Shown piece by piece: positions 2,515 to 5,107 of a DNA stretch of 33,034 nt. The notes beneath the pieces are model-generated. The model was not told where the DNA came from and did no database searches. It saw nothing but the letters and a program-made list of their open reading frames with translations. The number at the start of each line of letters is the position of its first letter. The first letter of the stretch is position 1. This stretch comes from Flavobacteriales bacterium. Lineage in GTDB: Bacteria > Bacteroidota > Bacteroidia > Flavobacteriales > Flavobacteriaceae. The position numbers and the translations under genes were made by a program. Where the stretch lies: positions 1 through 33,034 of the forward strand of contig JALWLE010000136.1 of the NCBI GenBank assembly GCA_026996605.1, in the 5' to 3' direction.

Positions 2515-3622
2515 ATGATCACACAGGAACAACTCAAAGATTTGGAAAAACGTCTAACCGCCTTAAATCACTATCTTTGACATAGATAAGAAACGTATAG
2601 AAATAGAAAATGAAGAAGAAAAAACCGGTAATCCTGATTTTTGGAATGATACAAAAGAGGCTCAAAAAGTGATGAAATCCATTCAATCTAAAAAAAAATG
2701 GATATCTGATTATGAAAAAGCTAAAGAATTTTTAGATGAATTGCAGGTTTTATATGAATTTTATAAAGAAAAAGATGCGACCGAAGAAGATGTCGATACT
2801 CAATTTGAGCAAACAAAAAATTTGATAGAGGATATTGAGTTTAGAAATATGCTGTCAGGTGAAGCTGATCAATTAAATGCAGTATTGCAAATAACAGCCG
2901 GAGCAGGAGGAACGGAAAGCAACGATTGGGCTGAAATGCTCTTACGAATGTATTTGATGTGGGCACAAAAAAACGGTTACAAAACCAAAGAACTCAACTA
3001 CCAAGCCGGTGATGTAGCCGGAGTTAAAACCGTTACTATCGAAATAGACGGAGATTATGCTTACGGTTATCTCAAAGGCGAAAATGGTGTCCATCGTTTG
3101 GTACGTATTTCTCCTTTTGACAGCAATGCCAAGCGGCATACATCTTTTGCATCGGTTTATGTCTATCCGCTTGTTGATGATACCATTGAAATAAACATTA
3201 ATCCTTCAGACATTAAATGGGAAACTATGCGTGCAAGTGGTGCCGGAGGACAAGCTGTTAACAAACTTGAAACGGCTGTACGCCTACGACATGAACCTTC
3301 GGGTATCATTATTGAAAACTCAGAAACCCGATCGCAGCTTGAAAATAAAGAGAAAGCTATGAAATTACTCAAATCACGCTTATACGAAATAGAAATGCAA
3401 AAAAGAATGGAAGAGCGTGATAAAATTGAAGCTAATAAAAAGAAAATAGAATGGGGGTCACAAATTCGTAATTATGTAATGCATCCATATAAATTAGTTA
3501 AAGATGTGAGAACCGGACATGAAACTTCACAAGTTGACAATGTTATGAACGGTGAAATCGATGATTTCTTAAAATCCTATTTGATGATGACAGGACAAAA
3601 AACGAAAGATGAAAATGATTAA
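2515..3622 (+). CDS. prfB: Peptide chain release factor 2, read through a programmed +1 frameshift
   Basis: The coding sequence is join(2515..2577, 2579..3622), giving 368 residues against about 365 in E. coli RF2. The first 21 codons end in TAT CTT followed by an in-frame TGA at 2578-2580. Skipping one base resumes at GAC (2579) with DIDKKRIEIENEEEKTGNPDFW, a typical RF2 N-terminus. The anticodon-mimic tripeptide SPF is at residues 199-201 (RISPFDSNAKRHTSF), and the catalytic GGQ loop is at 244-246 (ASGAGGQAVNK). RF2 ends translation at UGA and UAA, so the internal UGA makes its synthesis depend on its own scarcity. The Ala after GGQ replaces the more common Asn. A shorter unshifted start at 2669 would drop conserved N-terminal sequence and is not preferred. 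Confidence 0.96.
2575..2581 (+). promoter_or_regulatory. prfB: prfB programmed frameshift site CTT TGA C
   Basis: The CTT-TGA-C slippery heptamer is identical to the classical RF2 autoregulatory site, preceded by a conserved TAT (Tyr) codon. The peptidyl-tRNA slips from CUU to UUU when RF2 is limiting. In E. coli a Shine-Dalgarno-like AGGGGG three bases upstream stimulates the shift. Here the upstream bases are AAATCACTAT, with no purine-rich element. Confidence 0.93.
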
Positions 3623-3730: not shown

Positions 3731-5107
3731 ATGAATTTTCCATATGCAGAGCCTTTTAAAATAAAAAGTATTGAAAACATTAAGCGATCGACGATAGAAC
3801 AACGTAAACAATGGATACAAGAAGCCCACTACAACTTATTTAACCTTAAAAGTAATCAGGTCTTTATTGATTTATTGACAGACAGTGGCACCGGTTCTAT
3901 GAGTGATAACCAGTGGGCGGAAATCATGAAAGGTGATGAAGCTTATGCCGGATCACGTTCATTTGAATTGCTTAAAGCCAATGTACAACGCATCACCGGA
4001 TACCAATATTTGATTCCTACTCATCAAGGGCGCGCTGCTGAAAACGTATTATTTTCGGCTCTGATCAATAAAGGAGATATCATTCCGGGAAACTCTCATT
4101 TTGATACGACCAAAGGACATATTGAGTTTCGCAAAGCCAAAGCTATTGATTGTACAATTGATGATGCATCAGACACATCAAAATTTCATCCATTTAAAGG
4201 TAATATTGATCTGAACAAACTTGAAAAAGTTTTTAAAACTTATCCTAAAGAAAAAATACCTATGGTCATAATGACTATAACCTGCAATACTGCAGGGGGA
4301 CAACCCGTTTCAATGAAAAATATCAGAGAAACCGCCGAACTTTGTCGCCGATATGATATTCCTTTATATTTTGATGCAGCTCGGTTTGCCGAAAATGCTT
4401 ATTTTATCAAAAAACGTGAAGATGCCTATAAACATAAAAGCATTAAAGAGATTGTACGTGAAATGTTCAGTTACGGTGACGGTATGACCATGAGTGCCAA
4501 AAAAGACGGTTTGGTTAATATGGGAGGTTTTATTGCAACTAATAATGAGGATGTGTACAACAAAGCCACTGTTTTTGCTATTCTTTTTGAAGGATTTATC
4601 ACTTACGGTGGAATGAGTGGTCGTGATATGGGTGCATTGGCTATTGGGTTGGATGAAGCTACTGAATTTGATTATTTGGAAAGTCGCGTCGAACAAGTAC
4701 AATATCTCGGACGTAAATTAATGGCTGCCAATGTGCCGGTGCAGCAACCTATAGGCGGACATGCTATTTATTTAGACGCCAACAAATTTGTCCCAACCAT
4801 ACCACGAAACCAATACCGTGCTCAAGCGCTGGCAATAGAACTATATATAATAGGCGGCATCAGGGGAGTTGAAATCGGGACTATTCTTGCAGATAGAGAC
4901 CCCGAAACCGGAGAAAATCGTTATCCTGATTTAGAATTGGTTCGATTAGCTATCCCACGTCGAACCTATACCAATAACCATATGGATTATACGGCTGCAG
5001 TTATTGAGCATGTTTACCATACAAGAAACGAAGCACGAACGGGCTATGAAATTATTTATGAAGCGCCGGTGCTTAGACATTTTACAGTAAAATTGCGAAA
5101 AATATAA
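3731..5107 (+). CDS. tnaA: Tryptophanase (tryptophan indole-lyase)
   Basis: This PLP enzyme splits L-tryptophan into indole, pyruvate and ammonia. The 458-residue protein aligns over its full length with the tryptophanase/tyrosine phenol-lyase family, including TDSGTGSMSDNQWAEIM, PTHQGRAAEN, NTAGGQPVS, the PLP-lysine motif MSAKKD (Lys258 by family alignment) and FEGFITYGG. Three residues distinguish the two activities. Tyrosine phenol-lyase has Thr, Arg and Phe, while tryptophanase has Asp, Val and His. This protein has Asp125 (HFDTTKGH), Val380 (GIRGVEIG) and His450 (VLRHFTVKL), so all three favour tryptophanase. No tnaC-like leader or tryptophan permease is adjacent. The 108-bp gap after prfB suggests its own transcript. 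Confidence 0.92.
   Translation: MNFPYAEPFKIKSIENIKRSTIEQRKQWIQEAHYNLFNLKSNQVFIDLLTDSGTGSMSDNQWAEIMKGDEAYAGSRSFELLKANVQRITGYQYLIPTHQGRAAENVLFSALINKGDIIPGNSHFDTTKGHIEFRKAKAIDCTIDDASDTSKFHPFKGNIDLNKLEKVFKTYPKEKIPMVIMTITCNTAGGQPVSMKNIRETAELCRRYDIPLYFDAARFAENAYFIKKREDAYKHKSIKEIVREMFSYGDGMTMSAKKDGLVNMGGFIATNNEDVYNKATVFAILFEGFITYGGMSGRDMGALAIGLDEATEFDYLESRVEQVQYLGRKLMAANVPVQQPIGGHAIYLDANKFVPTIPRNQYRAQALAIELYIIGGIRGVEIGTILADRDPETGENRYPDLELVRLAIPRRTYTNNHMDYTAAVIEHVYHTRNEARTGYEIIYEAPVLRHFTVKLRKI

Follow-up and report, generated by a model that had tools for sequence, protein, structure and literature searches.

A prfB frameshift site in a marine Flavobacteriaceae bacterium that lacks the Shine-Dalgarno-like stimulator

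How is a prfB frameshift maintained when the Shine-Dalgarno (SD)-like element that characteristically stimulates it is missing? The question is raised by a 33,034-nucleotide stretch of DNA (hereafter the window), which comes from a marine member of the Flavobacteriaceae (contig 136 in a draft assembly of 2.38 Mb and 149 contigs). The anti-Shine-Dalgarno (ASD) is reported to be hidden by bS21, bS18 and bS6 (PMC9976891). The puzzle of an SD in ASD-hiding ribosomes has already been published, and the prfB of F. johnsoniae has AGGAGG (PMC8710568). The original prediction for the window was that its prfB retains an intact CTT TGA C and the preceding TAT with no AGG/GGA-type element upstream, and that the site may rely on a different stimulator or accept lower efficiency. 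The relevant features are given below, with negative positions counted back from the CTT (2571 being −4).

2490–2497, + strand: TATTTTTG, which fits TAnnTTTG, upstream of prfB
2515–2580, + strand: prfB ORF0, 21 sense codons and then an in-frame TGA (sequence; coding-type variation)
2552–2569, + strand: place of the hairpin of many relatives (−23 to −19 with −10 to −6); the window has a disrupted register and no structure here
2566–2571, + strand: AATCAC replacing AGGAGG, the SD-like element being missing (sequence, duplex energy); 2571 is C in 16/16 clade sequences
2572–2574, + strand: E-site spacer codon TAT (TAT in 16/16 clade sequences)
2575–2581, + strand: slippery CTT, stop UGA and next base C (sequence; 13/13 genus genomes)
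2579–3622, + strand: +1-frame body of prfB, RF2, with TAA at 3620–3622 (NCBIfam TIGR00020)

Direct reading places the prfB start ATG at 2515–2517 and, after 20 codons, CTT at 2575–2577, TGA at 2578–2580 and C at 2581. The ORF0 peptide is MITQEQLKDLEKRLTALNHYL, and the +1 frame goes on as DIDKKRIEIENEEEK.... The +1 ORF matches TIGR00020 (NCBIfam prfB) with 462.8 bits, against a cut-off of 370, over 2669–3622; the prfB match within the window's own genome begins at 2573. Across 15 sequences of the window's clade, ORF0 has 7, 4 and 14 variable bases at the first, second and third codon positions, and the other frames show no coding pattern. RF2 is thus spread over two frames, joined at a CUU that is followed by an in-frame UGA and then C and preceded by the weak E-site spacer TAT; the role of spacer weakness, typically UAU or UCU, is described in PMC13245932. 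In each of three sequences inspected, the open +1 frame reaches just four codons upstream of the shift and contains no start codon. Because ORF0 varies as a coding sequence only in its own frame and the +1 frame offers no start before the site, the frameshift is needed and has been kept by selection. The heptamer CTTTGAC alone is not rare (8 occurrences in the window, where 3.5 would be expected by chance), so what speaks for it is where it lies in prfB and that it is conserved.

CTTTGAC is kept in all 13 genus genomes, none of which has an AGG within the 23 bases upstream of it, and the sister genus g253 (G268 and G660) likewise keeps the heptamer and has no SD-like element. An assembly error, a decayed gene or an internal start giving a shorter RF2 would make a frameshift unnecessary, and the ORF caller does list a GTG start at 2669. 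However, the same site is present in 13/13 genus genomes and ORF0 is under protein-level constraint, and we find an explanation of this kind hardly credible.

A TAnnTTTG box, which we take to be the −7 box consensus of Bacteroidota promoters, lies 25–32 bases upstream of the prfB ATG in 9/9 clade members inspected. The frameshift site itself (2572–2579) holds TATCTTTG, which fits the same pattern. Directly downstream of prfB is the tryptophanase gene tnaA (NF053783, 801.8 bits) at 3731–5107.

The bases preceding the spacer TAT, AAATCAC, have no capacity to pair with the ASD (positions −9 to −1, at 2566–2574, read AATCACTAT). The best duplex between −20 to −4 and the standard Bacteroidota 16S tail has an energy of +1.9 kcal/mol (+1.5 with a longer tail); the mean for AGGAGGTAT sites is −10.6 kcal/mol (n = 77). 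The SD-like element 3 nt before CUU, which we treat as a characteristic stimulator rather than a defining part of the site, is absent from the window. This confirms, as had been predicted, that the window holds a genuine prfB +1 frameshift site lacking its SD-like booster. Across the 16 distinct clade sequences the TAT, CTT and GAC codons are invariant, and the codon at −9 to −7 of the former SD drifts between AAC, AAT, AAA, CAC and CAT. The site leucine is CTT in all 16. The clade gene has 21 conserved leucine columns, of which only two have an invariant codon: the site CTT and the TTA at −12 to −10. Outside the core, this TTA, CGT at −24 to −22 and C at −4 are also fixed.

How widespread such sites are was assessed with a family pattern search, which demands CTTTGAC and flanking bases and so misses other site types. 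It matched 252 of 299 genomes; 150 rows were listed, of which 138 were judged to be prfB sites. Among these matches listed, 80/138 have AGGAGG or AGGGGG and 84/138 reach a duplex energy of −8 kcal/mol. Of the 58 without either hexamer among the matches listed, one is from the window's clade and 57 have a weaker SD or none. A search for non-G at −4 matched 134 of 397 genomes, some of the rows not being prfB. A draw across the phylum covered 257 genomes, of which 88 matched; in it, the recognised prfB sites outside the family keep, judged by eye, at least GGAG, GAGG or GGCGG. Since these sites keep at least a partial SD, full SD loss is concentrated in the Flavobacteriaceae. The spacer is TAT in 63, CAT in 8, TAC in 2 and TTT in 1 of 74 frameshifted genes, and the same codon is TAT in 23 and TAC in 19 of 48 non-frameshifted homologues. 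This near-fixation of TAT is only suggestive, because many of the non-frameshifted homologues belong to other families.

In the strong-SD family sites, Ala at −15 to −13 is encoded by GCG in 78/80 of those among the matches listed, though the third base is free. Arg at −24 to −22 is likewise invariantly CGC in the 23/23 strong-SD genes aligned, again with a free third base. A CGC/GCG mini-stem ahead of the SD is possible in such sites.

An RF2 tree built by a quick method without the site put the fully SD-less sites in four places. In an rpoB tree (gene present in 29/30 genomes), the window's clade is separate (100/100) and G034, G208/G622 and G088/G307 fall in a single group together with SD-bearing genomes; forcing all the SD-less rows together on rpoB was not rejected (p-AU 0.15). 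The two trees suggest that at least two SD losses are likely.

The original prediction had also assumed that ribosomes of this phylum make little use of SD pairing. Consistent with this, 18/408 leaders in G000 (the window's own genome), G001 and G268 reach −6 kcal/mol or below, compared with 30/408 in a mock region, so there is no SD excess at starts. An earlier count at the same threshold gave 6/163 for G001, with 1 when shuffled, and 1 of 85 for G000, also with 1 when shuffled; a few SD-like leaders in these two genomes are possible. Little SD use is nevertheless insufficient alone as a reason for the loss, because the 80 family sites counted above among the matches listed, and the AGGAGG of F. 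johnsoniae, have been kept.

Many of the relatives appear to have something in place of the SD. In sites without AGGAGG or AGGGGG outside the window's clade, −23 to −19 can pair with −10 to −6 (GCCUU/AAGGC and variants); of these 124 sites, 67 form all five pairs, 35 form four and 22 fewer. In the hairpin clade of a FastTree tree (63 rows), 288/315 cells are paired; sliding the partner by 1 to 3 bases leaves between 19 and 152 of them paired, and none of 2000 arm shuffles reached the observed pairing. The pair −22:−7, in which both positions are third codon bases, is C-G in 52, U-A in 7 and U-G in 4 rows and never C-A. Its association has a log-odds of 5.16, equalled by independent random placement of changes on the tree in 151 of 15 837 trials; among 61 control columns from within prfB the highest value is 2.06, and GC drift was rejected on this ground as the source of the covariation. 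In G017 the stem is kept as GCUUA/UAAGC despite a lost SD. Two results count against a long stem: the pair −19:−10 is formed in just 40/63, and RNAalifold on 68 hairpin-class sequences gives a 3-pair consensus (−2.13).

Mean upstream folding z-scores, which come from mononucleotide shuffles and are weaker than dinucleotide ones, are −3.24 for the hairpin class (n = 68), −0.15 for strong-SD sites (n = 23), −0.87 for Aequorivita-type sites (n = 11), +0.23 for the window's clade (n = 16) and +0.53 for the other SD-less or near-SD-less sites (n = 6). The three hairpin-class genomes with a known 16S tail (G018, G026 and G029) keep CCUCC. It is plausible, from the covariation, that an upstream hairpin of 4–5 bp substitutes for the SD in many weakened-SD relatives. 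Covarying hairpin loci in this large Flavobacteriaceae clade include L261, L262, L217 and L134. A limited literature search over titles and openings of abstracts, Naeem et al. 2024 lying outside it, found no published upstream hairpin at a Bacteroidota prfB.

Could such a hairpin stand in for the SD duplex at the window site itself? Its likely role in many relatives, with their compensatory changes and low z-scores, and a precedent in E. coli 70S ribosomes (PMC6321510) would favour this. In the window's clade, however, the hairpin register pairs poorly, with −22:−7 paired in 1/11 distinct sequences, and no stable hairpin by the E site was found among its 16 sequences; the stretch upstream of the site is rich in A, C and U and unstructured. 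We consider a hairpin at the window site very improbable. Conserved downstream structure was also rejected, as mean downstream z-scores range only from −0.57 to +0.32 across five classes and RNAalifold on 15 clade sequences gave a weak consensus of long-range pairs only (−6.35). A conserved upstream hairpin, as a candidate for the predicted different stimulator, thus occurs in many weakened-SD relatives but not in the window's clade, where the site would either accept lower efficiency or use a stimulator of a subtler kind.

We also considered the ribosomal side of the duplex. Extended rpsU SDs are known in Flavobacteriales (PMC9976891). Among the 16 genomes whose tail is known, 12 have an rpsU leader that mirrors their own 16S tail, with 10 to 13 consecutive bases paired (G-U allowed); in G040 and G053, the tail AACATCTCATTTT is mirrored over 12 bp. 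The pairing is shorter in G049 (7 bp) and G038 (5 bp), and there is no SD in G047 or in the G026 copy examined. The rpsU leader of the window's clade is AAAGAGGTGT in all 11 genus leaders read and in G268 (loci L135–L145 and L334); a bS21 match was not found in 2 of the 13 genus genomes. Ten clade leaders pair with the standard tail over 7 consecutive bases (−11.7 kcal/mol) and with ACACCUCUUUU over 11 (−15.5 to −15.7 kcal/mol). Since the leader mirrors the 16S tail in relatives, an altered ASD is predicted for the window's clade, one that has probably changed to the CCUCU type, as judged from this one leader sequence. A 16S tail of ACACCUCUUU in the genus would be consistent with the prediction and ACACCUCCUUU inconsistent. 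No 16S was found by Rfam in the 13 genus genomes, the window's own included, by pattern scan in 20 contig stretches of G268, or for G088 by patterns on 24 contig stretches and Rfam on 10 of them. A tail-pattern search of 60 relatives matched 16, none of them of the genus; this pattern would miss the G208 tail (AATACC), and its negatives are weaker than those of Rfam.

That the window site pairs with this predicted ASD was rejected, as the duplex showed no gain. Moreover, G208 has an SD-less prfB site yet an intact CCUCC core in its 16S, and an ASD change therefore does not explain the loss of the SD in general. The other SD-less lineages G088/G307 and G208/G622 (L347, L348, L351 and L352) have rpsU without an SD too. 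The window's own genome has a second, partial bS21 match at the end of a contig (G000:C77:8–73, L146).

With neither SD nor hairpin, the sites of the window's clade look minimal. We think it probable that the window prfB is a selected RF2 +1 frameshift site reduced to its core and working by intrinsic slippage. The P site would hold CUU, the E site the weak codon UAU and the A site the slow stop UGAC; when RF2 is scarce, the peptidyl-tRNA(Leu) would slip from CUU to UUU with neither SD–ASD pairing nor a local hairpin. Low efficiency may be enough, given that UGA, the stop specific to RF2, is used only modestly. TGA accounts for 15 of 85 ORF stops in G000 and for 19 of the 163 in G001 (12–18%); as this exceeds the 7% given for F. 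johnsoniae (PMC12421855), low demand for RF2 is only a partial excuse. More weakly, we infer that the hiding of the ASD in these ribosomes could have left the SD free to decay, the clade's own ASD having probably changed as well.

The RF2 protein of the clade also differs from that of its relatives. The loop reads GGQAVN (window 3245–3256), with Ala after the catalytic GGQ, in 16/16 clade sequences, and the same residue in 133 other frameshifted RF2 proteins is N in 129, H in 2, S in 2 and Ala in none. An RF2 with this loop might release more slowly at UGA, lengthening the pause in trans so that the SD would not be needed. The correlation, however, lies within one clade and Ala is absent from the other SD-less lineages, which makes a slow RF2 an improbable cause.

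A bare minimal site would have no need of the fixed CGT at −24 to −22, TTA at −12 to −10 and C at −4, and these count against it. They raise the alternative of a sequence-specific stimulator at −12 to −1, either the C at −4 or a nascent peptide R-x-T-A-L-N-H/Q-Y-L in the tunnel. Only 2 of 42 NAY codon columns in the clade are all C, namely TGA-C and the codon at −6 to −4, and the latter swaps between His and Tyr while the C is kept. Among 139 collected sites without AGGAGG or AGGGGG, His at −6 to −4 is CAC in 82 and CAT in 0, and near-identical peptide and bases occur in the other fully SD-less lineages (G034, G088/G307 and G208/G622). CAC makes up about a quarter of His codons in G000 and G001 and is rarer before Tyr (17/104), so codon-pair bias was rejected as the origin of the C. 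On the other side, the SD-less sequences are related, and as a single clade was not rejected on rpoB, convergence of peptide or bases is not shown; A or G stands at −4 in other SD-less sites; the CAC codon of the hairpin class has its first base in a hairpin arm; and a third all-C NAY column (+11) in the AGGCAC group means that such columns also arise away from the site. A stimulator of this kind seems to us rather unlikely, and intrinsic slippage at a minimal core remains the preferred reading of the window site.

Tentatively, a wider history can be outlined, which we regard as possible but doubtful. The Flavobacteriaceae may have given up the prfB SD–ASD duplex repeatedly, one large clade moving to a hairpin whose 3′ arm is made from part of the SD, and the window's deep-branching clade to nothing in cis, together with changes in the ASD (CCUCU) and the RF2 catalytic loop. 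If this were true, RF2 autoregulation would have survived the exchange of its ribosomal stimulator.

The window site resembles the prfB sites of E. coli and F. johnsoniae in being an RF2 gene with an early in-frame UGA, a CUU slip, a UAU spacer and a C after the stop (PMC8710568, PMC12421855), and differs from both in having no AGGGGG or AGGAGG 3 nt before CUU. Frameshifting of prfB is given for 523/726 Bacteroidia and as absent in Weeksellaceae (PMC8710568). Like the Weeksellaceae (ASD UCUCA, mirrored by rpsU in G040 and G053), the window's clade is predicted to have an ASD change, though another one; unlike them, it keeps the frameshift. In E. coli 70S ribosomes, an upstream hairpin next to the E site can act at CUUUGA as a mimic of the SD duplex (Huang, Cho and Chang 2018, PMC6321510), and the relatives described here offer natural candidates for such an E-site duplex without SD pairing. 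The hairpin of that paper has a GC-rich 12-bp stem and an E-site codon CGC and is active only without RF2, whereas the natural stems are of 4–5 bp and the window has none.

For F. johnsoniae, PMC12421855 and PMC13245932 cite Naeem et al. 2024 (RNA 30:136). As far as we have searched, the new elements are the hairpin of the relatives, a clade with neither SD nor hairpin, the CCUCU-type ASD predicted from rpsU and the Ala after GGQ. Naeem et al. 2024 are said to have found that SD-less Flavobacteriales prfB sites work without SD–ASD pairing, and that in F. johnsoniae an SD-less Flavobacteriales site matches the native one in frameshifting. Sites of prfB without an SD have thus reportedly been published for Flavobacteriales already, and the window site adds a variant. 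It is like the site of Winogradskyella psychrotolerans, reportedly a frameshift without an SD in that same work; the latter may belong to the hairpin class, and the window site does not.

A survey states that nearly all bacteria share one prfB mechanism (PMC12421855), which is hard to square with the Flavobacteriaceae sites. One family, the marine bacterium of the window included, holds natural sites with a strong SD, with a weak SD and a hairpin, or with neither. With three natural site types in one family, ready-made variants are at hand for testing in F. johnsoniae how much each stimulator contributes.
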